Below are positions 3,688 through 39,725 of a DNA stretch of 39,725 bases, piece by piece. Origin of the DNA: Pseudomonadota bacterium (GTDB taxonomy: Bacteria; Pseudomonadota; Alphaproteobacteria; UBA1280; JAAZVW01); NCBI GenBank assembly GCA_018623135.1, contig JAAZVW010000011.1:1-39725 (forward strand), in the 5' to 3' direction. Position numbers and translations under genes: made by a program. Position 1 is the first letter of the stretch. Each line of letters begins with the position of its first letter. Below the pieces are notes generated by a model. It searched no databases. It saw only the letters and a program-made list of their open reading frames with translations, and was not told the DNA's origin.

Positions 3688-4308
3688 ATGATAAAAGAAC
3701 TCAATATACCTTCACATATCATCTGTATTGGCGCCGCTAAAACGAAAAGCAGCCAGCAGATACAACAGGCAATATCTAAAGGACTCACACACATAGGTGA
3801 AAATTATATTCAAGAAGCAGAAGCAAAGGCGAAAGAGGGTGCTTATAAAGGGGCTCAATTACATTTTATAGGGCATTTACAATCCAACAAAGCTAAAACC
3901 GCAGTTCATTTCTGTGATTCTATAGATTCTGTGGACAGTATTAAACTTGCAAACAAAATCAACAAAGAAGCATTTAATATCAATAAGATACAGAATATTA
4001 TGATAGAAATAAACATTGCGAATGAACCACAAAAACATGGCATTAGTATATCTGATTTACCTGTTCTTATATCCCATATAAAATCAAACTGCCCGAACCT
4101 ACATTTAACAGGGCTTATGATGATTCCACCCAAAAACAAAAACCCAAGGCCTTACTTTAAACAACTTAAAAAATTATGTGAAACATATAACCTTAAACAT
4201 TGCTCCATGGGCATGTCATCAGACTACCAGATCGCTATAGAAGAGGGCGCAACACACATACGATTAGGCACCGCTATATTCGGCGCAAGAAAAAAGGCAG
4301 ACACTTAA
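3688..4308 (+). CDS. YggS/PROSC-family pyridoxal-phosphate homeostasis protein, short N terminus
   Basis: PLP-binding TIM-barrel protein of the YggS (PLPBP) family, which buffers cellular PLP and has no known catalytic activity. It has 206 residues; homologues are usually about 225-235. Visible family motifs are GAAKTKS near residue 18 (the Lys that binds PLP in the family's AVSKT motif), HIGENYIQEA, HFIGHLQSNK, and the C-terminal SMGMSSDYQIAIEEGATHIRLG phosphate-binding region ending FGAR. The usual first 15-20 residues are missing. Upstream the frame stays open for many codons without an ATG, GTG or TTG, so ATG 3688, with AGG eight bases ahead, is the only credible start. It is the only plus-strand gene left of the origin region and is richer in A and T than its neighbours. 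Confidence 0.88.
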   Translation: MIKELNIPSHIICIGAAKTKSSQQIQQAISKGLTHIGENYIQEAEAKAKEGAYKGAQLHFIGHLQSNKAKTAVHFCDSIDSVDSIKLANKINKEAFNINKIQNIMIEINIANEPQKHGISISDLPVLISHIKSNCPNLHLTGLMMIPPKNKNPRPYFKQLKKLCETYNLKHCSMGMSSDYQIAIEEGATHIRLGTAIFGARKKADT

Positions 4309-4363: not shown

Positions 4364-5233
4364 TTAAAATCCTAAACGTGTTAACACATCGGCAAGCTGT
4401 TGCTCATTCTCAAAGTTAAATCGAATAGAACCGCGTCCGCCTTTTTGGCGAATATTACACTGCACGCCTAAATCTTTTTCAATACGAGATTCAAGCTCTC
4501 TTGTCGCAGCGTCTTTAGACTTGTTTGTTTTCGCCTTTGGTTCAGAACCAGATTCACGCAATGTTGAGCGCACAGCATCTTCCGCTTCACGTACCGACAT
4601 ATCTTTTTTCATAATTTTAGACGCCACACGCAACTGAAGCTCTGGATTATCAGATAACGGCAGTAATGCTCGGCCATGCCCCATCGAAAGTTCGCCAGCA
4701 GCAACAAGATCACGACAACGATCTGGCAACGAAAGAATACGAATCATATTAGAGATATGAGAACGACTTTTACCCGTTACACGCCCCATCTCTTCATGCG
4801 TATAGTTATATTCGTTTACAAGCCTTAAATAGCCTTGCGCCTCATCAACAGGATTTAAGTCGGAACGTTGAATGTTTTCAACAAGAGCAACTTCTAAAGC
4901 CTTATTATCTGAAAGCTCACGAATGATAACCGGAACTTCTTTTAAGCCAACAAGCTTAGAAGCACGCCAACGACGTTCACCAGCAATAATTTCATAAACA
5001 CCTTCCGTGCCTGGCTTAGGGCGAACGAGTAGGGGCTGAATAACACCTTGCTCTTTAATAGAAGCCGCAAGAGAGTCTAACGCTTCTTGATCAAAATAGT
5101 GACGTGGTTGCGCATCTGATGGCACCAACTGGGCAACTGGCAATGTACCTTCTGATACGCCTTGTTCTATATGTTTTACAGCTGTGTCATCTAATAGAGC
5201 ACCTAAACCTTTACCTAAACCTAAACCCGCCAT
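4364..5233 (-). CDS. parB: Chromosome-partitioning protein ParB
   Basis: CTP-dependent DNA clamp that loads at parS and spreads, marking the origin region for segregation. It has 289 residues. The opening MAGLGLGKGLGALLDD is the N-terminal ParA-interacting segment. The ParB/Srx domain follows with the arginine-rich CTP-binding motif GERRWR at about 85-90 and VENIQRSDLNPVDEA. A helix-turn-helix that reads parS lies at about 144-166 (THEEMGRVTGKSRSHISNM). The last 40 residues (about 250-289) form the dimerisation domain after a charged linker. Its ATG overlaps the parA stop by one base (TAATG), giving translational coupling. Two parS sites nearby support function. Confidence 0.97.
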   Translation of the reverse strand: MAGLGLGKGLGALLDDTAVKHIEQGVSEGTLPVAQLVPSDAQPRHYFDQEALDSLAASIKEQGVIQPLLVRPKPGTEGVYEIIAGERRWRASKLVGLKEVPVIIRELSDNKALEVALVENIQRSDLNPVDEAQGYLRLVNEYNYTHEEMGRVTGKSRSHISNMIRILSLPDRCRDLVAAGELSMGHGRALLPLSDNPELQLRVASKIMKKDMSVREAEDAVRSTLRESGSEPKAKTNKSKDAATRELESRIEKDLGVQCNIRQKGGRGSIRFNFENEQQLADVLTRLGF

Positions 5234-6009
5234 TAGACTGTTGCTCCTGCTTTAAATTTAGAAAGGAATTCTGAAGCAAGCTTCATATAAGCTTGAGAAC
5301 CTGTGCATTTTTGATCATATAATAAAACAGGCTTACCAAAGCTTGGGCTTTCAGAAACACGTACATTACGTGGGATAAGCGTATCAAATACCTTGTCCTT
5401 TAAGTATGCCTTAACATCTTCTGCCACAAGAGATGAAAGTTTATTACGATTGTCATACATCGTAAGAAGCACACCCATCAGATTCAAACTTGGGTTAAGC
5501 TTAGCCTTAACAAGTTCGATTGTTTGGAATAATTGAGAAAGACCTTCCATAGCAAAGAACTCGCACTGTAGCGGCACAATAATATCATCTGAAGCCGTTA
5601 AGGCGTTAATTGTAAGCAAGCCTAATGATGGCGGGCAGTCGATGAAAATATAATCATATTCTGTCTCGCACTCAGCAAGCGCATTTTTAAGACGGAATTC
5701 ACGTGAGAAAACAGATACCAATTCAACCTCTGCACCACTTAAGTGCATTGTTGAAGGAATAACATCTAAATTAGGGATAGCAGTTTGGTGCACAGCTTCT
5801 TTAATTGTGCAACGCTCTGTTACTAACGCGTATGAGTTGTAATCGCTAGTTTTTACAACCCCAAGACCTGTGCTTGCATTACCCTGCGGGTCAAAATCAA
5901 TAACAAGGACTTTGCTACCGCAAGCTACAAGAGCTGTGGCGAGGTTGATTGAAGTAGTCGTCTTGCCAACGCCACCCTTTTGGTTTGAAACTGAAATAAT
6001 ACGAGCCAT
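5233..6009 (-). CDS. parA: Chromosome-partitioning ATPase ParA
   Basis: Walker-type ATPase of the ParABS system. ATP-bound dimers coat the nucleoid and ParB-parS complexes move along that gradient. It has 258 residues. The deviant Walker A motif KGGVGKTTT is at about 11-19 with both signature lysines, Walker A' is DPQGNAS, and Walker B is IFIDCPPS at about 122-129. No DNA-binding N-terminal extension is present, as expected for chromosomal ParA. The start is preceded by AAAGG at good spacing. A parS site lies 22 bases upstream of the ATG in the leader, and a candidate promoter overlaps it by one base, so autoregulation through ParB binding is plausible. An rsmG terminator separates it from the upstream gene. 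Confidence 0.97.
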   Translation of the reverse strand: MARIISVSNQKGGVGKTTTSINLATALVACGSKVLVIDFDPQGNASTGLGVVKTSDYNSYALVTERCTIKEAVHQTAIPNLDVIPSTMHLSGAEVELVSVFSREFRLKNALAECETEYDYIFIDCPPSLGLLTINALTASDDIIVPLQCEFFAMEGLSQLFQTIELVKAKLNPSLNLMGVLLTMYDNRNKLSSLVAEDVKAYLKDKVFDTLIPRNVRVSESPSFGKPVLLYDQKCTGSQAYMKLASEFLSKFKAGATV

Positions 6010-6030: not shown

Positions 6031-6046
6031 TGTTCCACGTGAAACA
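6031..6046. promoter_or_regulatory. parS site 1 (ParB-binding centromere)
   Basis: TGTTCCACGTGAAACA matches the widely conserved 16-base parS consensus TGTTNCACGTGAAACA at every fixed position. It lies between parA and rsmG, in the 5' leader of parA. Confidence 0.92.
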
Positions 6047-6136: not shown

Positions 6137-6755
6137 TTGAAATATTTTTAATTAAAAGTATTCTGCTTTCGGGTGAGGTTAAAGATTCGAAAGTCTCCAA
6201 ATCAAAATTCCATGTTTCACGTGCAACATCTACTTCTTCTTTCCATCTTTCACCTTTAGGAAATAAGAACTTTATATCTTTATGATGGAGTGGGGAAGTC
6301 CAATTCAATAAATTAATTAATTCTGAAACTGCACGAGCAGTAATAAGATCAACTTTCAAATCTAGATTATTAACATCATCTCTAATTACTTCAAAATTTG
6401 ATTTAAGATCTAATTGTCTTCTGCATTCTTTTAAGAACTGAACTTTCTTACCAATTCTCTCGCAAGCATAAACTGGAATTTCTAAAAGAGTTGCCAACAT
6501 AACAGATGGAGTTCCGCCACCTGAACCAAAATCTAAAATAGACTTAGTTTCATTTGGTATAAATTTAACTAATTGGCAAGAGTCGAATACATGTCTTAAT
6601 AAAATATCAGGAAGAGTAGAGGGACTTACCAAGTTATAATGCGCATTCCACTTTTTAAGAAGGCTTTCATAACCCAAAAGCTTTTCCATTTGTTCTTCTG
6701 TTACATTTATATTTGCCAATTTAAATTTGTTGTTTAATTGCTCTGTTTTATTCAT
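6123..6755 (-). CDS. rsmG: 16S rRNA (guanine-527-N7)-methyltransferase RsmG (GidB)
   Basis: SAM-dependent methyltransferase that makes m7G527 in 16S rRNA; loss of it can give low-level streptomycin resistance in other bacteria. It has 210 residues, normal for the family. Motifs are LLKKWNAHYNLVSPS at about 32-46, the SAM-binding loop DFGSGGGTPSVMLA at about 75-88, a motif II acid in YACERIGKK, and TARAVSELINLL at about 139-150. The gene is clearly richer in A and T, and in Lys, Asn and Ile codons, than mnmG or parA beside it. A second parS site is embedded in its coding sequence. It sits in the mnmG-rsmG-parA-parB order common in many bacteria, but terminators on both sides suggest it is transcribed alone. 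Confidence 0.95.
   Translation of the reverse strand: MNKTEQLNNKFKLANINVTEEQMEKLLGYESLLKKWNAHYNLVSPSTLPDILLRHVFDSCQLVKFIPNETKSILDFGSGGGTPSVMLATLLEIPVYACERIGKKVQFLKECRRQLDLKSNFEVIRDDVNNLDLKVDLITARAVSELINLLNWTSPLHHKDIKFLFPKGERWKEEVDVARETWNFDLETFESLTSPESRILLIKNISKKVV
6213..6228. promoter_or_regulatory. parS site 2, inside rsmG
   Basis: TGTTTCACGTGCAACA; its reverse complement TGTTGCACGTGAAACA fits TGTTNCACGTGAAACA at every fixed position. It lies 182 bases from site 1, within the 3' part of rsmG. parS inside coding sequence is common because ParB spreading does not need an intergenic position. Confidence 0.87.
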
Positions 6756-9861: not shown

Positions 9862-10853
9862 AATTAAACAACCTATACCTATTAAAAAACAATCAAAAAA
9901 TATAAATAAAATATGTTTTATTTTGAATCATTTTAACTGTTTTTTATAATAAAAATGCTACCAAGCAAAAAAGAAAAGAAGAGGAAATCTCGAAAAATAT
10001 TAAGCTATTTTCCTATTAAATTAATCTCTCTATTTTTCTTTATTTGCTCTTATGAAATTATAGCACAATTGTCATTATTTTTCTTATAAAAAATCAGAAA
10101 GAATGACTTAAAATCACAAAAAAATATATAGAATAAATACAATATAACTTATGATTGTATATTTTTTGTTTTTATATATTTTAAAGACGTTAAAAACCAT
10201 CTGTTATTTCAGATAATAATTTTTAAAAAAATCACCAAAAAGTAAGTTAATAAACACAAACAAACATATATATAAAATATTAATATTAAATAAAAATAAA
10301 TACATTTAATCTAAAATAGTAAATAACATTAAAAAAACAAATATCTTGTATAAGTTGCATAAAAAAATAACAACCAATTTGGGTATGTACAAAAAATTTT
10401 TTAAATATTAAATTTATAAAAATAAGCCGAGACAAGCTAAAAATTATCAAAAATAACAAGCTATTAAACTTCTAAAAAAGCTTCAAATATATACAATAAT
10501 TTTGTAACAAATTAACGGTGAAAATTAAAGACATTTTAACCTAAAATTACATAAAAACTTAAAAAATTTATATTCTTAAAAAGAAACATATTTATACAAA
10601 AAAATAAAAGTTTCAAAATGATACAAATATAACGATAAATTATGATAAATTTTATACTTAAAATTAAATATTGTATGCAAGTTAAAACAAACTAACACCA
10701 ATGGTTATTATGTAAAGTTATGTGTATATATTATATTTTTATAAATTGTGTCTTTAGTACAACAGTAAGATAAAATATGAATACAATCTGAAAAATAGAT
10801 AACCCATATAAAAAAGATATTGTATATCTGTTATTGATATACTCAGCAAATAA
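9862..10853. other. Gene-free, extremely AT-rich kilobase
   Basis: No open frame of 60 codons and no recognisable RNA gene is seen. G and C are very sparse, far below the flanking genes. Long A and T runs are frequent. The hexamer TTGTAT or its complement ATACAA occurs at 10137, 10155, 10346, 10491, 10594, 10621, 10671, 10781 and 10820. The patatin-like gene's promoter must lie at its left end. It may be regulatory or protein-binding DNA, or the remains of a decayed gene; I cannot tell which. Confidence 0.6.
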
Positions 10854-10871
10854 AAGAGGTGATTACCTCTT
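10852..10871 (-). terminator. Second hairpin downstream of the HIT gene
   Basis: AAGAGGT (10854-10860) and ACCTCTT (10865-10871), loop GATT. On the minus strand it is followed by TTATTTG. It probably backs up the stronger terminator just before it. Confidence 0.45.
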
Positions 10872-10880
10872 AAGGCATAA

Positions 10881-10906
10881 AAAAACGGCTTTAAGTAAAG
10901 CCGTTT
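10881..10906 (-). terminator. Intrinsic terminator of the polA-HIT unit
   Basis: AAACGGCTTT (10883-10892) and AAAGCCGTTT (10897-10906) form a perfect ten-base-pair stem with a four-base loop, followed by T on the minus strand. It lies 11 bases after the HIT gene. Confidence 0.85.
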
Positions 10907-10916
10907 AAATCATTTA

Positions 10917-13986: not shown

Positions 13987-14418
13987 TTAAAAGGGTTTAA
14001 AGAAAACAAGGCAGATTACAACAATTAAAATAACTGAAGGAACCTCGTTATAAATACGGAAGAATTTTTCCGAACGTTCGCATTTATCAATTTGTAAACG
14101 CTTACGGTAATACCCTAAGCTGATATGATACAAAGAAAGAATAAAAACAAGGAATACTTTCGTGTGTAACCACCCGGCATCTCGGTATGCTTCTGGCTGT
14201 TCTAAAACAAGGTTTACACCTAAAAACCAAACAAGCACCATAGAAGGGGTCATAATGTAATAAAAGAGTTTACGCGCCATTAAATTAAGTACATTTTTAA
14301 CGTCTTCATTGTTGGCATTGGCACGATGATAAACAAACAAACGTGGTAGATAAAAAAGTGCTGCGAACCATGTGATTATAAAAATAACATGGGCTGATAA
14401 AAGTCCTAAATAATACAT
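13987..14418 (-). CDS. hemJ: Protoporphyrinogen IX oxidase HemJ
   Basis: Integral membrane oxidase that converts protoporphyrinogen IX to protoporphyrin IX, the next-to-last heme step, in bacteria lacking HemG or HemY-type oxidases. It has 143 residues with four likely membrane helices (about 4-24, 50-72, 82-102 and 123-141). The invariant His10 is present in LSAHVIFIITWFAALFYLPR, and the conserved Lys87 in LHTKVF. FFRIYNEVP near 121-129 is a HemJ hallmark. The gene sits between the Tim44-like gene and polA, and hemE is just across the predicted origin. The later plus-strand gene called hemY here is a different, non-enzymatic family, so HemJ would be the only such oxidase in the window. Confidence 0.93.
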   Translation of the reverse strand: MYYLGLLSAHVIFIITWFAALFYLPRLFVYHRANANNEDVKNVLNLMARKLFYYIMTPSMVLVWFLGVNLVLEQPEAYRDAGWLHTKVFLVFILSLYHISLGYYRKRLQIDKCERSEKFFRIYNEVPSVILIVVICLVFFKPF

Positions 14419-14480
14419 GTTGTTATTCCATTTTTATTAATTTATTTATGAATATCTTATTTATGTAAGTAGGTATTTAC

Positions 14481-15077
14481 CTACTGAACGTTATCGATGC
14501 TTTCAAGTTCCCAGTTTAAGTCTTCAGCATCAACAGATCTTGCCCAAGTCCAAACAGTAGTCACTTCTTGGAAATCCTCCAGATTCCCTTGTGTTGCGAC
14601 ATTATCAGCATCCAATATCGCCTGCGCAATACGTGCATGATATTTCACTTCAATAATCGCTGTTCTGCCAGATAAGCGGGCATCCATAATTTCTACATTA
14701 ACTTCTTTAATAGCAAAAGCCATCTGTTCACCAGCTTCATCATAGCGTTCTGCTTGCTCTAAATATTGATCAAACAATTTAGGTGAAAGCAAGTCTTCTA
14801 ACATGTCTTCATCATCTTCTGTAATAGCCTTATGATATAGCTCAAATGCAGAAGTAGCCCCTTCAATAAAATCCTTTTCATTAAAGTCACGATCAGCTGC
14901 TTTAATTTGCGCCATACCTTCTAGACCCTCAATATCAATTTCAGGTTTTTTAGGCATCTTTAGCGGGATTATTTTTGCTTCTGGTTTTTGTTGATCTTCT
15001 GGTAATTTCATAGAGAAGAAACGACTAAAAACAAAAAAGCCTAAGGCTATTAAAAATAAAAGTTCCACAACATTCAT
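14481..15077 (-). CDS. Tim44-like domain protein (TimA type)
   Basis: Bacterial relative of the mitochondrial import-motor protein Tim44. The 198-residue protein has one N-terminal membrane helix (about 4-22, LLFLIALGFFVFSRFF), a proline- and charge-rich linker to about 55, and a Tim44-like domain at about 70-195 ending TVWTWARSVDAEDLNWELESI, a strongly conserved end in alphaproteobacterial members. It is probably anchored in the inner membrane with the domain outside the bilayer. In many alphaproteobacteria this gene neighbours mltA and an Smr-domain gene. Here mltA and smr lie across the predicted origin. Its exact role in bacteria is unsettled. The 5' side faces the DnaA-box region, so DnaA could affect its transcription. 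Confidence 0.88.
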   Translation of the reverse strand: MNVVELLFLIALGFFVFSRFFSMKLPEDQQKPEAKIIPLKMPKKPEIDIEGLEGMAQIKAADRDFNEKDFIEGATSAFELYHKAITEDDEDMLEDLLSPKLFDQYLEQAERYDEAGEQMAFAIKEVNVEIMDARLSGRTAIIEVKYHARIAQAILDADNVATQGNLEDFQEVTTVWTWARSVDAEDLNWELESIDNVQ

Positions 15078-15438
15078 AACAATATATTCTATTCTTTATT
15101 AAGGAGTTAATTTTAAGCATCCCCATTATCCACAGAATTCACATAATCCACAAGGGGCAATTTTATAAAATTATTTCTTTATTTTATAGCAACTTACTCC
15201 AAAAACAGCAAAGTTAGCCAATGTGTATAACTTTTGTTTTTTCTATTTTCAAAAAAAAGCTTTCAGGTTATGCTGTGCGTACTTCACAAAAAAGATCACA
15301 TAGAAATTTATATGTAACTTATTGTTAATAAGAGGTTTTTAAAAGTTATCCTCAAGTTTCACAGCTTCAAAAACAATAACAATAAAAATTAATAAATTTA
15401 TTTATTATAATTATTATGATTAAGGGATAAGTGGATAA
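15078..15438. other. oriC: Predicted chromosome replication origin (oriC)
   Basis: About 360 bases without a gene between the Tim44-like gene and hemE, the position of the origin in Caulobacter and several relatives. DnaA-box-like sites: TTATCCACA at 15126-15134 (perfect), TAATCCACA at 15144-15152, TGTGTATAA at 15222-15230 (perfect on the other strand), TTATCCTCA at 15346-15354, and AGTGGATAA at 15430-15438 ending at the hemE ATG. A tract of almost pure A and T at about 15366-15420 would suit duplex opening. All genes for 10 kb on each side, except yggS, read away from it. I saw no GANTC methylation site and no clear CtrA site inside. Confidence 0.8.
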
Positions 15439-16473
15439 ATGAAACCTTTATTAGAGGCTTTAAATTTAAGAGAAGTAAAAAGACCCCCTTTCTGGATGAT
15501 GAGACAAGCTGGGCGCTCTTTACCCGAATATCGTGCTTTACGTCAAGAAGCGGGTGGTTTTCTAGATCTATGCTATAATCCTGATTTTGGAACAGAGGTC
15601 ACACTTCAGCCTTTAAGGCGTTTTGGTATGGATGCCGCGATCTTATTTTCTGATATTCTTGTTATTCCTCATGCTTTAGGTCAAGAACTTACATTCGAAA
15701 AAGGTGAAGGACCAAAGCTTCCGCCGATCTCTGTTGAAGATATTGAAAAACTTTCAGCTCAAAAAAATAATATTGATAAAAAATTAGAGCCTATTTACCA
15801 AACAGTACGTGGCGTTAAAGAAAAACTAGAAGAAAATCAAACTATTATAGGTTTTTGTGGCGCACCTTGGACTGTCTCTACCTACATGATTGAAGGCGGT
15901 AGCTCTAAAAACTATGCGAAAACAACAAGCTTTTCTCTTAAACACCAGCAGGCTTATGATCAGCTCATTGATTTGCTTATCGAAACATCTGTTCATTACT
16001 TAAGCCAACAAATTAAAGCAGGTGCAGAAGCGGTACAAATTTTTGATTCTTGGGCGGCGGTTCATTCACCAGAGCAATTTGAACGTTGCGTGCTTAAACC
16101 TTTACTTAAAATGGCTAAGCTTCTAAAAGATAAACACCCAGAAGTGCCTATTATCCTGTTCCCAAGAGGCATTCACCCCCATCAGCTTGAAGTATTTGCT
16201 GCCCATAATGCGCATTTTGAAGGCTTAGGGCTTGATACAACCATTGATCTAGCTTGGGCACATGAAAAACTTCAGGGTAAAGTTTGTATTCAGGGTAATT
16301 TAGACCCTAACTTACTGTTAACAACACCTGAAATTATCCGTGAAAAAGTGACAAAAATGCTAGAAATTGGCCACAAAAAGCCAGGTTACATTTTTAACTT
16401 AGGCCATGGTGTTTTACCTGAAACACCTATGGAAAACCTTGAAGCGCTTGTTGAAACAGTTAAAAATTTCTAA
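15439..16473 (+). CDS. hemE: Uroporphyrinogen III decarboxylase
   Basis: Cytoplasmic enzyme removing four carboxyl groups from uroporphyrinogen III to give coproporphyrinogen III in heme synthesis. It has 344 residues, standard length. Family signatures are PPFWMMRQAGRSLPEYR at about 16-32 (substrate-binding Arg residues), FSDILVIPHALG with the catalytic Asp, FCGAPWTVSTYMIEGG, and FNLGHGVLPETP near the end. The last DnaA-box-like site of the predicted origin ends on the base before its ATG, and GGATAAG in the same stretch may serve as ribosome site. hemE directly beside the origin is the arrangement known from Caulobacter and rickettsiae. mltA follows after 22 bases. Confidence 0.97.
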   Translation: MKPLLEALNLREVKRPPFWMMRQAGRSLPEYRALRQEAGGFLDLCYNPDFGTEVTLQPLRRFGMDAAILFSDILVIPHALGQELTFEKGEGPKLPPISVEDIEKLSAQKNNIDKKLEPIYQTVRGVKEKLEENQTIIGFCGAPWTVSTYMIEGGSSKNYAKTTSFSLKHQQAYDQLIDLLIETSVHYLSQQIKAGAEAVQIFDSWAAVHSPEQFERCVLKPLLKMAKLLKDKHPEVPIILFPRGIHPHQLEVFAAHNAHFEGLGLDTTIDLAWAHEKLQGKVCIQGNLDPNLLLTTPEIIREKVTKMLEIGHKKPGYIFNLGHGVLPETPMENLEALVETVKNF

Positions 16474-16495
16474 TAATTTCTAAGGTCTAAAATTT

Positions 16496-17689
16496 ATGAA
16501 AAATATATCTAATAAACTGAAATATAACAGAATTATTCTTTTAGTCGTTTGTTTTTGCTTATTAGCAGCTGTTGTTTTTCAATTTTTAGAATCTCAAAAG
16601 GAAATTTTTAAATTTGAGTTAAAAAAATCGTCCTTTTCTGCGATTAAAGGCTGGAGGGAAGATGACTTTAGCAAGGCTTACCCAGCTCTTGTTAAAAGCT
16701 GTGGCGTATACTTAAACCGCAAAGGTCCTTTACACGATGACCCTCGTTTTGGGTTTTACGAAGATTGGGCGCCTTTTTGTGAACGTCTTATCCGTACAGA
16801 AGCTGAAAATATTAGGCCTGTTATTGAGCAGGAGCTGACACTTTACCTTGTTAAACCTGATCAAGGTGAAGGTTTATTTACAGGATATTATGAACCTTTT
16901 TTAAAAGGCTCATTTACACAAACAGAGCGCTATAACACCCCTCTTTATCCGCGCCCTAAAGATATGTTTGTGGCGAAACTTTCTGATTTTATTGATGATT
17001 TGCCAGAAGAATTGCAATACAAACGCATTGTCGGACAAATTAAAGGCCAAAGACTTGTGCCTTATTTAGACCGTGCAGCCATAGAGCAAGGCTTACTTAA
17101 AACAGTAGAACCTCTTGTTTATGTGGATTCTCCTATTGATGCTTTCTTTTTACATATTCAGGGTTCTGGGCGTGTAGAGCTTCCTTCTGGTCGTATGATT
17201 AACTTAGGTTATGCAGGCCAAAACGGTCATAAATACCAAGCCATAGGTCGTTATATGGCAGACAAAGGTTACTTAGAGTTAGAAAATGTATCTATGCAAA
17301 GTATTCGTCAATTTTTGCTCGATAACCCTGATAAACATCAAGACATTTTTAATCAAAACCCAAGTTATATCTTCTTTACTGAAAAGCAAGGTGGTCCTTA
17401 TGGGTCTTTAGGCGTGGAACTTACAGAAGAACGCTCATTGGCTATTGACCCGAGCAAATTCCCGTTAGGGCTTCCGCTATTTTTGAATGCAAAAGTAAGC
17501 CTTACGGATGAAAACTTTTGCAAGCTGATGTCTGCACAGGATACAGGCGGTGCGATTAAGGGTATTTTACGTGGGGATATTTACTTTGGTTTTGGTGTGC
17601 AGGCAGAACAAAAAGCAGGGCATCAAAAGGCGCAAGGGCAGTTTCATGTACTTCTTCCTAAAAAACGCTCTATCAAAACTTTAGAATAA
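16496..17689 (+). CDS. mltA: Membrane-bound lytic murein transglycosylase A (MltA family)
   Basis: Cleaves the MurNAc-GlcNAc bond of peptidoglycan with 1,6-anhydro ring formation. The 397-residue protein has a hydrophobic N-terminal anchor at about 13-31 (IILLVVCFCLLAAVVFQFL). No clean lipobox follows; Cys20 and Cys22 lie inside the helix, so a simple membrane anchor seems more likely than lipidation. MltA signatures are GLFTGYYEPFLKGS, DAFFLHIQGSGRVELPSG, and the 3D-fold end MSAQDTGGAIKG through GDIYFGFG, giving Asp349 and Asp361 as catalytic candidates. In related genomes mltA sits with the Tim44-like and Smr genes; here those flank it at a distance. Short spacing to hemE suggests readthrough from it. 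Confidence 0.92.
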   Translation: MKNISNKLKYNRIILLVVCFCLLAAVVFQFLESQKEIFKFELKKSSFSAIKGWREDDFSKAYPALVKSCGVYLNRKGPLHDDPRFGFYEDWAPFCERLIRTEAENIRPVIEQELTLYLVKPDQGEGLFTGYYEPFLKGSFTQTERYNTPLYPRPKDMFVAKLSDFIDDLPEELQYKRIVGQIKGQRLVPYLDRAAIEQGLLKTVEPLVYVDSPIDAFFLHIQGSGRVELPSGRMINLGYAGQNGHKYQAIGRYMADKGYLELENVSMQSIRQFLLDNPDKHQDIFNQNPSYIFFTEKQGGPYGSLGVELTEERSLAIDPSKFPLGLPLFLNAKVSLTDENFCKLMSAQDTGGAIKGILRGDIYFGFGVQAEQKAGHQKAQGQFHVLLPKKRSIKTLE

Positions 17690-17765
17690 AATCCTTACAA
17701 AACTTGTTCTTTTATCTATTTTGATGTAAAACCACTAGGTACTCAATAACAAGGATTAGAGTCCG

Positions 17766-18680
17766 ATGGAAAAAATTCGTATAGCAACACGTCAGTCTAA
17801 GCTTGCGCAAATTCAAGCGCGCATGGTGGGTGATCTTCTTAAAGAAACACATGGGTTAGACTACGAACTTCACTTTGTCACGACAACAGGTGATAAATTC
17901 ATGGGTGATCTTTCTAAAGTTGGCGGTAAAGACGCCTTTGTGAAAGAAATTGAATCTTGCCTGATGAATAAAGAAGCAGATATTGCTGTACATTCCATGA
18001 AAGATGTCGCGGCTATTTTAAACGATGGTTTTGCCATTCCGGCTTATTTACCACGTGCAGATATTCGTGATATTGTTATTGGTAAATCACTTGTTGCTTT
18101 ACCTGAAGGTGGCCGTGTTGGTACCTCTTCTTGCCGCCGTGCTTCTCAAATTCGTGCCACATTTCCTCATCTAGAAATTGTGCCAATCCGCGGTAATGTG
18201 CAAACACGTATGGCTAAAATTACTGAAGATGTTTGTGATTCTGTTATTCTTGCTAAAGCAGGGATTGATCGCCTAAACCTTATGAAAGAGGTAGAAGAAG
18301 TTCTTGAACCCGATATGCTGATGCCAGCAGTAGGTCAAGGCGCAATTGGTGTTGAATGCTTAGCTGAAAACAAAGAGCTTATCGTCCTTCTTGAAAAAAT
18401 TAACGATAAAGAAACAGAAGTTTGCTTGAATGCAGAACGTGCGATGGTACGTAAGCTAGATGGTGATTGCCATACACCTATTGCAGGCTACTGTGAAGTA
18501 ACCAAAGCAGGTAACTTACGCTTTTTAGCTTTAGTGGCAGAGCCAGATGGTACAGCTGTACTACGCGCCCGCCATAAAGGTGATTACGAAAAGGCAGAGG
18601 AATTAGGCTTAGAGGTTGCAGAAGATCTGTTAAACCAAGGCGCTGCAGATATTATTAAACGCGTTAAAGAAGGTCGCTAA
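17766..18680 (+). CDS. hemC: Porphobilinogen deaminase (hydroxymethylbilane synthase)
   Basis: Joins four porphobilinogen units into hydroxymethylbilane. The 304-residue protein has IATRQSKLAQIQA at the N terminus, the catalytic Asp in AVHSMKDVA, the basic TSSCRRASQIRA loop, and Cys235 in DGDCHTPIAGY, which carries the dipyrromethane cofactor. The ribosome site AAGGA at 17751 is part of AAGGATT, which can pair with AATCCTT just after the mltA stop (17690-17696), so initiation might be tempered by a long-loop hairpin; this is weak evidence. hemD follows after 14 bases, then hemB, so hemC, hemD and hemB make successive steps of one pathway from one transcript. Confidence 0.96.
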   Translation: MEKIRIATRQSKLAQIQARMVGDLLKETHGLDYELHFVTTTGDKFMGDLSKVGGKDAFVKEIESCLMNKEADIAVHSMKDVAAILNDGFAIPAYLPRADIRDIVIGKSLVALPEGGRVGTSSCRRASQIRATFPHLEIVPIRGNVQTRMAKITEDVCDSVILAKAGIDRLNLMKEVEEVLEPDMLMPAVGQGAIGVECLAENKELIVLLEKINDKETEVCLNAERAMVRKLDGDCHTPIAGYCEVTKAGNLRFLALVAEPDGTAVLRARHKGDYEKAEELGLEVAEDLLNQGAADIIKRVKEGR

Positions 18681-18694
18681 AGGGTAGACTTTCT

Positions 18695-19348
18695 ATGTGG
18701 ATTGTCCCAAGTGCGCGCCATGCGTTAGACCATAGACTCGCAGAATTGAAGACCCAAGGCATTCAGGCTTTGGGTTTTGCTTTATCTGAAACATCGCCTA
18801 TTGCTTATCAGGATGAAGAAGGTCTAGGTCTTGTAACAAGCCATTATACTGCGCAAATTTTAAAAACAGATAATCCGCTTTATACATTTAGCTATTCGGC
18901 TTACAAGCTTTTGCTTGCACGCCAGTTGCAAGTGACTTATGTAAAAGCTAAAAATGCCTTAGAATTTGCGGAAAAACTTAATATAAAACCCCAAAAATGT
19001 ATTCATTATACCAGTAATATTTCTGAAAATTTATGGTATGAAAATTTGCAAAAAAAAGGTCATACAGTCGTTTATAAACAGATATACCAAACCTTATTTG
19101 CAGATAATTTACCAAAAGATGTAAAAGAAGCTTTATCCGAACAAAAAAGATGCGTTATACTACTTTTTAGCAAAGCTTCTGCCCAAAGGTTTATTCAGCT
19201 CTGTCAACAAGAAGAAATAGAGCTTAATCGGCATCTGTATGTCTGTATTAGTCAGCAAGTGGCAGATGTTTTGGGGCAACAGCAGGTATATGTATCAGAA
19301 AATCCAAGCTTAAAAAGCATGGTAGAAAGGGCCAAAAATGTCATTTGA
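18695..19348 (+). CDS. hemD: Uroporphyrinogen III synthase
   Basis: Cyclises hydroxymethylbilane with inversion of ring D. HemD is poorly conserved in sequence, and this 217-residue protein is recognised mostly from context and fold-type pattern: an N-terminal WIVPSARHALDHRLAELKTQGIQ, a middle CIHYTSNISENLW segment in place of the usual sugar-like loop, VILLFSKASAQRFIQL at about 149-164 matching the family's FFSPRSAE-type motif, and a C-terminal YVCISQQVADVL. It lies between hemC and hemB; hemB's ATG is inside its last codons, an 11-base overlap. AGGG is placed ten bases ahead of the ATG. Function is confident because of position, less so from sequence alone. Confidence 0.85.
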   Translation: MWIVPSARHALDHRLAELKTQGIQALGFALSETSPIAYQDEEGLGLVTSHYTAQILKTDNPLYTFSYSAYKLLLARQLQVTYVKAKNALEFAEKLNIKPQKCIHYTSNISENLWYENLQKKGHTVVYKQIYQTLFADNLPKDVKEALSEQKRCVILLFSKASAQRFIQLCQQEEIELNRHLYVCISQQVADVLGQQQVYVSENPSLKSMVERAKNVI

Positions 19349-20315
19349 TCTTCCGTTTCGATTCCGTCGTTTACGTAAAAACAAAACAATCCGAGACTTA
19401 ATTAGCCGTGTAGAACTCACAGCAAATGATTTTGTTTACCCTATTTTTGTTGAAGAAGGCTTAGAAGGCCGTGCAGAAAGCGATAGTTTACCAGGTGTAT
19501 TTCGTGTGGGGGAAACAGCCCTAGCTGCTGAAATTAACATGCTTTGGGAAAAAGGTATTAAAGCTGTTATGCTTTTTGGTGTTTCACATCATAAAGATGA
19601 AGAAGGCTCTGATACATGGGATGAAGAAGGCCTTATTGCACGTATGATACGTATTGTGAAAGACCAAGCCCCAGATATGGTTATTATGGCCGATGCTTGT
19701 TTCTGCCAATACACAACCCATGGCCATTGCGGCGTTTTAATTAACGACCATGTGGATAATGACTTAACGCTAGAAAACCTACAAAAACAAGCTATTAATG
19801 CTGCAGAAGCTGGTGCAGATTTTATTGCACCATCTGCGATGATGGATGGTCAAGTCATGGCGATTCGTGATGCTTTAGATGAAGCGGGTTTTGAAGATGT
19901 GGGTGTGCTTTCTTATTCTTCTAAATTTGCATCAGACCTTTATGGCCCATTTAGAGGTGCTGCTGGTTGTAGCTTAAAGCAGGGAGATCGTAAGGCTTAT
20001 CAGGCAGATTATCGCCACTACGAGCTTGCTCTAGAAGAATCTATGGTGGATATTGAAGAAGGTGCAGATATGCTTATGGTTAAGCCAGGTACGCTGTACT
20101 TAGATGTGCTTAAAGGCATCCGAGAAAATACTTCTTTACCTGTAGCGGCCTACCACGTAAGCGGTGAATATGCTATGATTAAGCATGCAGCACTGGCAGG
20201 GGCCTTAGATGAGAAAAAAGTGGTGCTTGAAACAATGGTCGCTTTTAAGCGCGCAGGTGCAGATCTTGTTATTACGTACTACGCACCACAAATTTTGGAT
20301 TGGTTAAAGGATTAG
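19338..20315 (+). CDS. hemB: Delta-aminolevulinic acid dehydratase, zinc-type
   Basis: Condenses two 5-aminolevulinate molecules to porphobilinogen. It has 325 residues. Catalytic lysines are Lys196 in SYSSKFAS and Lys249 in LMVKPG. The metal site reads ADACFCQYTTHGHCG, so Cys121, Cys123 and Cys131 form the three-cysteine zinc site of the E. coli and Bacillus type. The characterised enzymes of Bradyrhizobium and Rhodobacter lack this cysteine set, so the zinc form is noteworthy in this background. AAGGG six bases ahead of the ATG lies inside hemD. It is the third gene of a hemC-hemD-hemB run. Identity is secure; origin by transfer is possible but not shown. Confidence 0.97.
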   Translation: MSFDLPFRFRRLRKNKTIRDLISRVELTANDFVYPIFVEEGLEGRAESDSLPGVFRVGETALAAEINMLWEKGIKAVMLFGVSHHKDEEGSDTWDEEGLIARMIRIVKDQAPDMVIMADACFCQYTTHGHCGVLINDHVDNDLTLENLQKQAINAAEAGADFIAPSAMMDGQVMAIRDALDEAGFEDVGVLSYSSKFASDLYGPFRGAAGCSLKQGDRKAYQADYRHYELALEESMVDIEEGADMLMVKPGTLYLDVLKGIRENTSLPVAAYHVSGEYAMIKHAALAGALDEKKVVLETMVAFKRAGADLVITYYAPQILDWLKD

Positions 20316-20318
20316 AAA

Positions 20319-21413
20319 ATGGTTAAAAAGCTGGTTAAATCAAAAAAAACTTGGCTAACAGTTGTTGCTTTAGGTTTATTTAGCGCGGCTGCTGTGCTTT
20401 TTGTTTCTAAACCTACTGTTGATGAGGCAATGCTAGATCTAATTGTAGAAGAACCGCAAGAACAAAAATCAGTTGTTTCTCGTACGCAAATAGAACTTAA
20501 AACAAAACCGACAGAAATTAAAGTTATTGCTGAAAAGCCAGCAGAGGTAAGCTCTGAAGAACAAACAGCTGATAATGGAGCAGAAGAAAAAGAAACTTCT
20601 GAAAAGCAAACAGAGGGATCTACAACAGCGCAAGCATCTACAGAAACAGCTCAGGTACAAACACAAGTTAAAGAGCTTGTAGGCGTTATGGCAGCAAGCT
20701 TAGAAGAAGGTTCACAGCAAATTCGTGTGCTTTCAGATGCGATGCATAGTTTAAATAAACGTGTACTTGCACATAAACAACAAATAGAATCTTTAAAAGC
20801 AGAAGCAAAGCCAGATTTTGGTAAAATTAAAGATTTAACAAAAGTGTTTTTGTCTCAACAGCTTGTTGTGCTTGATAATCGTTTCCAAATAGGTGCTGTA
20901 TCTGCAGAAGAAATCGCTTTTATTGAGAATTTTGCCCGCACAACCGCACAAATGCCAGAAGTAGCGGATAAACTTAAAATGCTTAAAGAGCTTTTACCAA
21001 AAGAAGGCTCTGTAACCTTTGCAGAGGTTCAGCTTATTGCAGGTGAAGCAGCACGTTTACACCCACCACGCAAACAAGTTGCCGATACTGCACCAAACTA
21101 TGCAGAATATGTAACCTTTACAGATAAAGCCAAGGCGTTTTTCGTTCATATTAAACAAAATATTAAAGGCTTAGTTTCTGTACGTAAATCAGTAGGTGAA
21201 GAAACAGCTCATCCTTGGCTAAAAGCTATTTATGAAGCACGCTATGCGATTGCCCGTGGTAAAACACAAGAAGCGCTTCATATTTTGCAAGCAGCACCTT
21301 TAGGTGCCGATACACGCTTGAATGATTTGCGTGCGCTTATTACCTTATATAGCCAACAAACAAAAGCTTTAGCGGATGTTCAACAAAGTTTTATTTTAGG
21401 ATATAAACCATGA
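20319..21413 (+). CDS. Mic60 (mitofilin)-like inner-membrane protein
   Basis: The 364-residue protein has a short basic N terminus, one membrane helix at about 12-31, a long Glu-, Thr- and Gln-rich disordered region (40-118), a helical and probably coiled-coil section at about 120-165, and a C-terminal helical domain with AIYEARYAIARGKTQEALHILQ at about 305-326. This layout, and its place between hemD/hemB and hemY, match the alphaproteobacterial Mic60 homologues, which shape intracytoplasmic membranes and are ancestral to the mitochondrial MICOS subunit. Sequence similarity to Mic60 is low as usual and I cannot run a profile search, so the call rests on architecture and gene order. Its stop overlaps the hemY start by four bases. 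Confidence 0.72.
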   Translation: MVKKLVKSKKTWLTVVALGLFSAAAVLFVSKPTVDEAMLDLIVEEPQEQKSVVSRTQIELKTKPTEIKVIAEKPAEVSSEEQTADNGAEEKETSEKQTEGSTTAQASTETAQVQTQVKELVGVMAASLEEGSQQIRVLSDAMHSLNKRVLAHKQQIESLKAEAKPDFGKIKDLTKVFLSQQLVVLDNRFQIGAVSAEEIAFIENFARTTAQMPEVADKLKMLKELLPKEGSVTFAEVQLIAGEAARLHPPRKQVADTAPNYAEYVTFTDKAKAFFVHIKQNIKGLVSVRKSVGEETAHPWLKAIYEARYAIARGKTQEALHILQAAPLGADTRLNDLRALITLYSQQTKALADVQQSFILGYKP

Positions 21414-22690
21414 TGCATACTTTAAACATTGTACTTACAGTACTTGTTTTAACAGCCATAGGCTATATTGGCCTAGAATACCCTGGCGACATTACTGTTA
21501 ACTGGGGCCCTTATGAGGTAAGAACATCTTTGTTCTTTGCATTTGTGGTGCTGTCTTTACTTGTGTTTATCAGCATGCTTATGTTCCGCTTAAGTTTATG
21601 GCTTAAAAACTTGCCGAAACGTTTTAAAGAAGACCGCCGCGAAAAGCGCTTGGAAGAAGGCGTAAAAGCACTTGTAGGCTCATTAGAGGCAACAGCTTCT
21701 GGCAAACACCAGCAAGCTAAAATGCTTGCTGAAAAAGCAACACAGTTGCTTCCAAATGCAGAGAGCACGTCTATTATTGCAGAAACCTTCTATTTAGAAG
21801 CTCCTTCAGAAAAAACCACCCGTCGTTACGAAAAAATGGCAGAAAACCCAAATACAGCCTTTTTAGGTTTACGTGGGCTTATTCAACTGGCGCGCCGTCG
21901 TAATGATTGGTCGGCTGTACGTGTTTATGCAGAGCAAGCGTTGAACGAAAAACAAGATAGCCCTTTTGCATTGGCTGCATTTTTTGAGTCTGCTCTAAAA
22001 ACAGGTAAGTTAGATACAGCACTTGATTTAATGTCTCGCATTGGTAAACAAGGCGTTTTTAATACCGATAAGAAAGAGTTTTATGAAGCTTGCCTATGTA
22101 CAGAGCAAGCACATAGGTTGCTAGAAGCTCAAAACGCTGCTGAAGCGATGGAATCTGTTAAAAGAGGTTTAAAGGTTATCCCTAACTTTGCACCTTTATT
22201 GCTTTTAAAGGCAGATATTTTAGAATCTTTAGGTAAAGAATCTAAAGCCATTAAAGAGCTTGCGAATGCTTTTGAACAATGCCCACGACCTGAAATTTTA
22301 AATAAGTGGCTTTCGTTAAGTGATAACGGTAGCAATAGCAATAAGCTTAAAAAAGAAGGTTTAAAACTTATCGAGCAAACAGCCAAAGCCGTACAAAAAC
22401 ATTACTTTGAAGGCCTTATTTATTTGTATGTAAGTGAATTTGAAGAAGCTTACCGTGTGCTTAACTTAGCCCGTGAGGATCGTGCAGATAGGGAAGTGCT
22501 AGAATCTCTTGCCCGTGCTCAAGAAGCTTTAGGCCAGCCAGAGTATGAGGTAGGTAAAACGCTTAAACAGGCGCTTAAAGCAAAACCACTTGTATTTGCT
22601 AAACATGGTTTTGTAGAAGAATACCGTGCATGGCGTATGAAATACTTAAGTCCAGAACCTAAAACAGAAAACCTAATAAGTTATGACTAA
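21410..22690 (+). CDS. hemY: HemY-family membrane protein with TPR-like helices
   Basis: Non-enzymatic HemY family protein (not the protoporphyrinogen oxidase of the same name in Bacillus), usually found with hemC, hemD and a Mic60 gene. The 426-residue protein has two N-terminal membrane helices (about 5-22 and 38-60) joined by GYIGLEYPGDITVNWGPYEVRTS, which is a typical HemY N-terminal domain. Repeated helical pairs of tetratricopeptide type follow to about residue 390, such as AAEAMESVKRGLKVIPNFAP and ESLGKESKAIKELANAF. Two consecutive ATG codons (21410 and 21413) are possible starts. The exact role in heme synthesis is not settled. It overlaps both neighbours by a few bases, showing tight coupling. 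Confidence 0.9.
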   Translation: MMHTLNIVLTVLVLTAIGYIGLEYPGDITVNWGPYEVRTSLFFAFVVLSLLVFISMLMFRLSLWLKNLPKRFKEDRREKRLEEGVKALVGSLEATASGKHQQAKMLAEKATQLLPNAESTSIIAETFYLEAPSEKTTRRYEKMAENPNTAFLGLRGLIQLARRRNDWSAVRVYAEQALNEKQDSPFALAAFFESALKTGKLDTALDLMSRIGKQGVFNTDKKEFYEACLCTEQAHRLLEAQNAAEAMESVKRGLKVIPNFAPLLLLKADILESLGKESKAIKELANAFEQCPRPEILNKWLSLSDNGSNSNKLKKEGLKLIEQTAKAVQKHYFEGLIYLYVSEFEEAYRVLNLAREDRADREVLESLARAQEALGQPEYEVGKTLKQALKAKPLVFAKHGFVEEYRAWRMKYLSPEPKTENLISYD

Positions 22691-23432
22691 AGATTGGGAC
22701 TGGGAAGACGAAATAGCAGATGTCACACCGCTTAAAAATAAAAAGCGGGTGGTTGCTGGTAAAACCAAAGCCTCTTCTGTAAAGGAAGGGGCTTTGTCTC
22801 CTTCTCAACAGATATCAACTAGCGATATAAACAAAGCAGATGACTTTGATGCGGTGGATGACTTTGATGATATGATCCAAGAAGCGCATAAGCTTACAGA
22901 GAGCCTTTTTACTGAAAAAACGACCACGAACAAACCAGAAGAACATAAACCTCTTCAAATAGACGCTGAGAGCTTTTTTAGAGGGTCAGAAAAAGAAGAT
23001 TACGCCACTTTTGCCCAAACTCAGCAAAATTTAAAAGAACGTTATAAAGAATTTATTCTGAAATCTCATACATCAGACCTTATTTATGGCCACTTACCCT
23101 CTTTAGATGACAAAATTCTTAAAAAATTAAGACAAGGTCAATTCCCTATTCAAGGGCGCATAGATTTGCATGGCTTAACGTTAGAACAGGCGTATAACCA
23201 GAGCATGTCTTTTTTACATGCGCGGTATGCGCAAGGCGCAAGAGTTGTGCTCATTACCCACGGAAAAGGCAAGGGATACGGGGACTTTAACGATATGGGT
23301 ATTATTAAATCTCAAATCCATCAATGGCTTATGGGGCATACGCAGGTGCTTGCTTTTCATACCGCTTTACCAAGACATGGTGGGGCAGGTGCATTGTATG
23401 TACTGTTGAAAAAAAATCGCACAGGGTCTTGA
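22683..23432 (+). CDS. Smr-domain protein (putative endonuclease)
   Basis: The 249-residue protein has an acidic, low-complexity N-terminal part (about 1-115) and a C-terminal Smr (MutS2 C-terminal-like) domain at about 157-248. Domain signatures are RIDLHGLTLEQAY (Asp161, His163), VVLITHGKGKG at about 194-204, and PRHGGAGALYVLL at the end. Smr domains nick DNA or cleave RNA in several bacteria; the specific substrate of the stand-alone alphaproteobacterial form is unknown. Its start overlaps the hemY end by eight bases. In related genomes it is beside mltA and the Tim44-like gene. It is the last gene before the rho promoter. Confidence 0.9.
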   Translation: MTKDWDWEDEIADVTPLKNKKRVVAGKTKASSVKEGALSPSQQISTSDINKADDFDAVDDFDDMIQEAHKLTESLFTEKTTTNKPEEHKPLQIDAESFFRGSEKEDYATFAQTQQNLKERYKEFILKSHTSDLIYGHLPSLDDKILKKLRQGQFPIQGRIDLHGLTLEQAYNQSMSFLHARYAQGARVVLITHGKGKGYGDFNDMGIIKSQIHQWLMGHTQVLAFHTALPRHGGAGALYVLLKKNRTGS

Positions 23433-31375: not shown

Positions 31376-31480
31376 GGTTATGTAAGCAACTTAAGGTTTA
31401 TTAAAAATAATAATATATATTTAAATTAAAATTATTTTGCAGAAGTAGTTAACGAGAGTAAAATAAAATATAAGTTTTTT

Positions 31481-38776: not shown

Positions 38777-39725
38777 TTAAATATCCAAATTACGTACGTT
38801 CAGAGCGTTTTTCTGGATGAAATCACGACGTGGGTCAACCACATCACCCATCAGTGTAGAGAAGATAGAATCTGCTTTCATTGCATCTTCCACACGTACT
38901 TGTAGCATTAAGCGGTTATCAGGGTTTAGTGTTGTTTCCCATAGCTGTTCAGGGTTCATTTCACCCAAACCTTTATAGCGCTGAATCTTAATACCATGGC
39001 GACCTTCTTCCATTACTGCATTTAAAATAGCGCGTGGAGAAGTGGCATCTGTTTCTACATGCCCTGCCTTAAATCGACCTTGGCCAATAAGCTCAATAAG
39101 ATCTTCTTTCATATTCATAAGGTCATTAAATGCCTGATGAGAGAAGAAAGAAAGAGAAACTTTAACATCTTCTTTTAAGCCACCAACAGTACGTGTAATA
39201 ACACCGTAATGCTTGCCTTCAGCATTTTCATCTGGGCGTACAGTGGCATTCCAACGCTCAATTTCTTCTAGGCCTTCATTCATAAAGCTGGCAACTTTTT
39301 CAATAAGTACAGAGGTTTGGTCTGCACTTTCAAAAGTTTCACGGCTAATGTTTGCTTTAAGAGAGGCATTTATAATGTTCTCATCAATTTGGCCATATAG
39401 CTCATCGTATAGTTTTGTTGCGCGTTGGCAAATTTTATAAGTGTTTTCTAAATCTGCACCAATGCGAGATTCGCCACTTTCTAAGCTCAGTACAGCATCT
39501 TTTAAGCCTGTGCCAGATAAGTAGTTTTGTAGTTCTTCATCATTGAGTAGATAAATTTCTGATTTACCTTTAGCCACTTTATAAAGCGGTGGCTGGGCAA
39601 TGTATAAGTAGCCTTTTTCAATAATTTCAGGCATATGACGGAAGAAGAACGTTAAAATAAGCGTACGAATATGAGAACCATCGACGTCGGCGTCGGTCAT
39701 GATTACAATCTTATGGTAACGCAGT
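38777..39725 (-). CDS. gyrB: DNA gyrase subunit B, C-terminal part (runs off the right edge)
   Basis: ATPase subunit of the type II topoisomerase that introduces negative supercoils. The visible 316 codons begin inside the TOPRIM domain, [21 protein letters not shown], which holds the metal-binding Asp triad [23 protein letters not shown] follows, and the C terminus has [20 protein letters not shown] and [19 protein letters not shown], both typical of GyrB rather than ParE. An insertion-like stretch of about 150 residues lies between, as in proteobacterial GyrB. The frame is open to the right edge, so the gene continues there. In many bacteria dnaA, dnaN and recF precede gyrB; whether they do here is outside the window. 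Confidence 0.97.

Follow-up and report, generated by a model that had tools for sequence, protein, structure and literature searches.

Gene organization around the hemE gap

The sequence considered here is contig C2 of a fragmented assembly (1.52 Mb in 70 contigs, 85% complete), and the whole of it, 39.7 kb, is referred to as the window. The genome is the sole member of its family among the genomes compared, and its order comprises six genomes. Between two divergent genes, one encoding a Tim44-like domain protein and the other uroporphyrinogen decarboxylase (hemE), lies a 361-bp intergenic gap with 25% GC, compared with about 38% GC in the window. The features relevant to its interpretation are the following:

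4364..6009, minus strand: parB and parA (Pfam ParB_N and HTH_ParB; ParA named from the ORF sequence)
6031..6046, no strand assigned: parS site 1, TGTTCCACGTGAAACA, between parA and rsmG
6213..6228, minus strand: parS site 2, TGTTGCACGTGAAACA, inside rsmG
14481..15077, minus strand: Tim44-like domain protein gene, left flank of the predicted origin (Pfam Tim44, 9.3e-21)
15078..15438, no strand assigned: predicted oriC
15126..15134, plus strand: DnaA box 1, TTATCCACA, perfect
15144..15152, plus strand: DnaA box 2, TAATCCACA, one mismatch, 18 bp after box 1; pair kept in G001, G002 and G005
15222..15230, minus strand: DnaA box 3, TTATACACA, perfect match in inverted orientation; G001, G002 and G005 likewise have an inverted box
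15346..15354, plus strand: DnaA box 4, TTATCCTCA, one mismatch; it follows box 3 by 124 bp and lies next to the AT-rich tract
15366..15420, no strand assigned: probable DNA-unwinding element, an A/C-rich stretch followed by AT-only sequence at 15381-15417 (unwinding predicted)
15430..15438, minus strand: DnaA box 5, TTATCCACT, one mismatch, abutting the hemE start codon
15439..16473, plus strand: hemE, right flank of the predicted origin (Pfam URO-D, 1.4e-119)

Gene direction switches at the gap. The nine rightward genes listed in the earlier note are all present, whereas the leftward run, given there as ten, amounts to nine (Tim44, hemJ, polA, HIT, patatin, mnmG, rsmG, parA and parB), beyond which yggS reads rightward. 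The nearby gyrB is found at 38777-39700, truncated by the contig end, and the ParABS system expected 9 kb from the gap is present with its two parS sites. A further sequence, TGTTTTACCTGAAACA, at 16410-16425 inside hemE and 1 kb from the predicted origin, differs from parS by two mismatches and could be a decayed parS site or a product of chance.

In three order relatives (G001, G004 and G005) one side of the gap carries parB-parA ... polA-smr-hemY ... hemB-hemD-hemC-mltA-Tim44 and the other hemE-hemJ-rho. Compared with these, the segment from mltA to smr (mltA-hemC-hemD-hemB-mic60-hemY-smr) lies on the hemE side in the window (13987-23432) and hemJ on the Tim44 side, and the swapped genes are still directed away from the gap. 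Judged from gene order, this arrangement is what one would expect from two nested inversions across the origin. The usual order at 80 hemE loci of other alphaproteobacteria is coaE-maf-COG1806, the gap, and hemE-hemJ-rho. COG1806 (DUF299, PF03618) has no match in the genome studied here (85% complete) or in four other order members; in G001 it is found between Tim44 and the gap, at the left origin border. Tim44 has thus apparently become the border gene via loss of COG1806, and it also takes the place of COG1806 in one genome of another order (L134).

DnaA boxes and the AT-rich tract

The two perfect boxes and three near matches reported earlier are all present at the coordinates and on the strands given. 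Five sites with at most one mismatch are present, whereas 2000 dinucleotide-shuffled versions of the gap contain 0.33 on average and never more than 3. The gap is also the densest 361-bp cluster of DnaA boxes across the window and five other stretches of the same genome. Three of the five boxes carry one mismatch each, which counts against an origin. Box 5 does end on the base before the hemE start codon (15438, with the ATG at 15439), and one may guess that DnaA acts on hemE directly through it; among the four relatives, a comparable reverse box near the start occurs only in G002 and G005. Scanning the gap and its surroundings for promoters returned two weak sites where chance alone would give 3.2, and on this yield we claim no hemE promoter. 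By-eye inspection beside boxes 4 and 5 gave no clear match to a DnaA-trio motif.

The tract next to hemE had been described as AT-only over about 15366-15420. It is AT-rich over that span, but strictly AT-only just in the 37 bp from 15381 to 15417. Of all 51-bp segments in the window, only one is less stable than that starting at 15374. AT runs as long or longer occur elsewhere in the window (31397-31438, 10266-10302), so the tract by itself is not unusual. The least stable segment (10266) falls inside a region of about 1 kb (9862-10916) between the patatin-like and HIT genes, which has about 20% GC and no ORF longer than 61 aa. Scans for tRNAs and Rfam families across the whole window, this region included, gave no matches.

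Conservation of the gap across the order

The gap upstream of hemE has DnaA boxes in all four order relatives considered (G001, G002, G004 and G005). Relative to the hemE start, they lie at -306, -288, -201 and -77 in G001 and at -353, -335, -220, -114 and -48 in G005; G002 has eleven sites and G004 three. The window, G001, G002 and G005 share a common geometry, in which two direct boxes exactly 18 bp apart precede an inverted box at a distance of 78-115 bp; a direct box comes after a further 124, 124, 123 and 106 bp, respectively, and then AT-rich DNA and hemE. This geometry is thus common to four of five genomes, the strict form being absent from G004. When the boxes of each genome are placed at random without a change in their number, the probability that this geometry arises by chance is 2e-5 to 4e-3 per genome. 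The genomes that suggested the geometry also served to test it, so that one of the four does not count as independent. The 18-bp pair does not occur at the 80 hemE loci of other alphaproteobacteria, nor at 26 further loci.

The cumulative GC skew points to the same place. Within the 39.7-kb window, which is the scope of the curve given the 70 contigs of the assembly, the minimum falls on base 15380, at the AT tract and within the gap; over this span the GC skew agrees with the origin prediction of the earlier note. In each of the four relatives, the skew minimum either coincides with hemE or is no more than about 7 kb away from it: at 4144 in G002 (hemE at about 4213), inside hemE in G005, at 63.6 kb in G001 (hemE at 59.2 kb; 165 kb read) and at 425.5 kb in G004 (hemE at 432.7 kb; 237 kb read). 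The offset of 4-7 kb in G001 and G004 weighs against an origin at hemE.

Alternative explanations

The point of gene divergence coincides exactly with the gap and box 5 abuts the hemE start codon, as would also be expected if the skew switch merely mirrored divergent genes and the box cluster were a DnaA-responsive hemE promoter. Since divergent genes could give rise to skew via transcription, third-codon positions were used to distinguish transcription from replication. Left of the gap, third-codon GC skew is -0.149 for minus-strand genes and -0.254 for the one plus-strand gene; on the right side, it is +0.079 for plus-strand and +0.078 for minus-strand genes. The sign tracks the side regardless of gene strand, and gene direction is therefore not the explanation of the flip. 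This pattern is what replication strand bias requires, and a change from minus to plus marks an origin, not a terminus. In addition, four other members of the order keep the location at hemE although genes have been rearranged. We regard the promoter explanation as extremely improbable.

An origin beside dnaA, which would leave the hemE gap as no more than a promoter under DnaA control or a site that titrates DnaA, draws on the four perfect boxes of near-identical spacing found just upstream of rpsT-dnaA in G004 (L099:9781-9951) and G005 (L100:9720-9892), and on two perfect boxes at the same position in G001 (L102:9726, 9772). In the relatives with such a cluster, however, the skew minimum is at hemE instead, and in the two genomes measured dnaA lies about 30 kb (G001) and about 75 kb (G004) past it. 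The 20-kb dnaA stretch of the genome studied here has no perfect box and no comparable skew step. A better cluster next to dnaA, which the earlier note had named as contrary evidence, is missing from this genome's dnaA stretch. We reject an origin at dnaA as very improbable, on the skew of G001 and G004 and because the dnaA of the genome studied here has no perfect boxes. Still less credible, with a probability close to nil, is an origin at mnmG (gidA), rsmG and parAB, as Ori-Finder proposed for Bradyrhizobiaceae. Palindromes of the type TGTTNCACGTGAAACA occur at 6031 and 6213, beside rsmG and mnmG, and have been taken as DnaA boxes (PMC2275245), but the palindrome is the standard parS site and here adjoins parAB. 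The skew is negative all the way from 6 kb to 15 kb, up to the minimum at 15380, and this location is rejected on that ground.

The genome's next best pair of perfect boxes (C49, 16357 and 16535) was rejected as an origin, the skew being uniformly negative there. A second DnaA-box element, consisting of TTATGCACAAAGTTATCCACA and another perfect box, is found outside the window on C49 (L088:9383-10168) and in G004 (L101:9474-9771). The spacing of its perfect boxes is 178 bp in these two genomes and 179 bp in G005. The neighbouring genes differ, the element lying in the uvrB/uvrC gap in G004 and G005, and in the genome studied here it shows no skew switch. It is possibly a DnaA-titrating or DnaA-reactivating element.

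Proposed initiation and its control

From the sequence evidence, we conclude that 15078-15438 very probably serves this alphaproteobacterium of the UBA1280 lineage as its chromosomal replication origin (oriC). The position rests on sequence statistics and comparison, and the proposed binding of DnaA, melting and firing follow the DnaA-oriC paradigm. DnaA-ATP would load on boxes 1-3 (15126, 15144, 15222), and the oligomer would then grow as far as box 4 (15346), which lies next to the AT-rich element. Melting of this element at about 15366-15420 would permit helicase loading, upon which two forks would depart, one via Tim44, polA and parAB and the other via hemE, hemCDB and rho. The new origins may then be segregated by ParB on the two parS sites.

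We found no sign of CtrA control in this genome. The gap contains no perfect TTAA-N7-TTAA CtrA site, and full-length CtrA (model NF045991) has no match in the genome (85% complete), while matches in G003, G001 and G004 are full-length and below the cut-off. No GcrA was detected in the six genomes of the order. Given 85% completeness, the absence of CtrA and GcrA from this genome is suggestive only. Neither IHF consensus (WATCAAN4TTR or WATCAN5WTR) occurs in the gap; IHF sites are degenerate and a diverged site is possible. We tentatively propose, as a broader reading that we find somewhat more doubtful than not, that the order has a hemE-side origin whose DnaA-box geometry (an 18-bp direct pair, an inverted box and a direct box about 124 bp on) is fixed and peculiar to it. 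Firing, at least in this genome, would then not depend on the CtrA-GcrA circuit, and the extra DnaA-binding element (C49; the uvrB-uvrC gap in relatives) may tune DnaA activity.

Comparison with known hemE-side origins

That hemE can lie beside oriC in Caulobacter and the rickettsiae, as stated in the earlier note, is documented: experiments have established such an origin for Caulobacter, and one has been predicted for Rickettsia, Wolbachia and their relatives (PMC1914354). Ori-Finder uses hemE as an indicator gene (PMC2275245). Like Caulobacter crescentus Cori and the Rickettsia prowazekii origin, the gap lies directly upstream of hemE, ending at its ATG, and is an AT-rich region of a few hundred bp, richer in AT than its surroundings, with an AT-rich element and several DnaA boxes (5 vs 0.33 expected). 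The GC-skew shift at the gap likewise fits a hemE-side oriC, given the minimum at 15380 and a third-codon flip independent of gene direction. The best boxes here are TTATCCACA and TTATACACA, as against the TGATCCACA G-boxes of Caulobacter (PMC4285127). Unlike these two origins, the gap has no perfect CtrA site, and its genome has no detected COG1806, such that Tim44 borders the origin; an IHF consensus site is not seen either, although a diverged one may be present; G001, of the same order, retains COG1806 at the left border as in the hemE/COG1806 origins.

COG1806 at the border and CtrA sites, neither of which was detected here, are typical of hemE-side origins and not universal. Accepted hemE-side origins without CtrA sites exist, some Wolbachia, Ehrlichia and Anaplasma members having few or none, and the border gene is not defining, since it varies among accepted members and is COG1253 in Wolbachia (PMC1914354). 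The window thus resembles the hemE-COG1253 origins of Wolbachia, Ehrlichia and Anaplasma in that the hemE border is kept and the other border gene has changed, here to a Tim44-like gene, apparently by loss of COG1806.

For the field overall, this is an expected result. It places a replication origin for a lineage represented by a fragmented assembly, shows that across the order the origin is marked by hemE and not by dnaA, and allows the loss of COG1806 and the apparent absence of CtrA and GcrA to be compared with Caulobacter and Rickettsia. A hemE-side oriC is known in Alphaproteobacteria; what is new is the altered border gene and the order-wide DnaA-box geometry.
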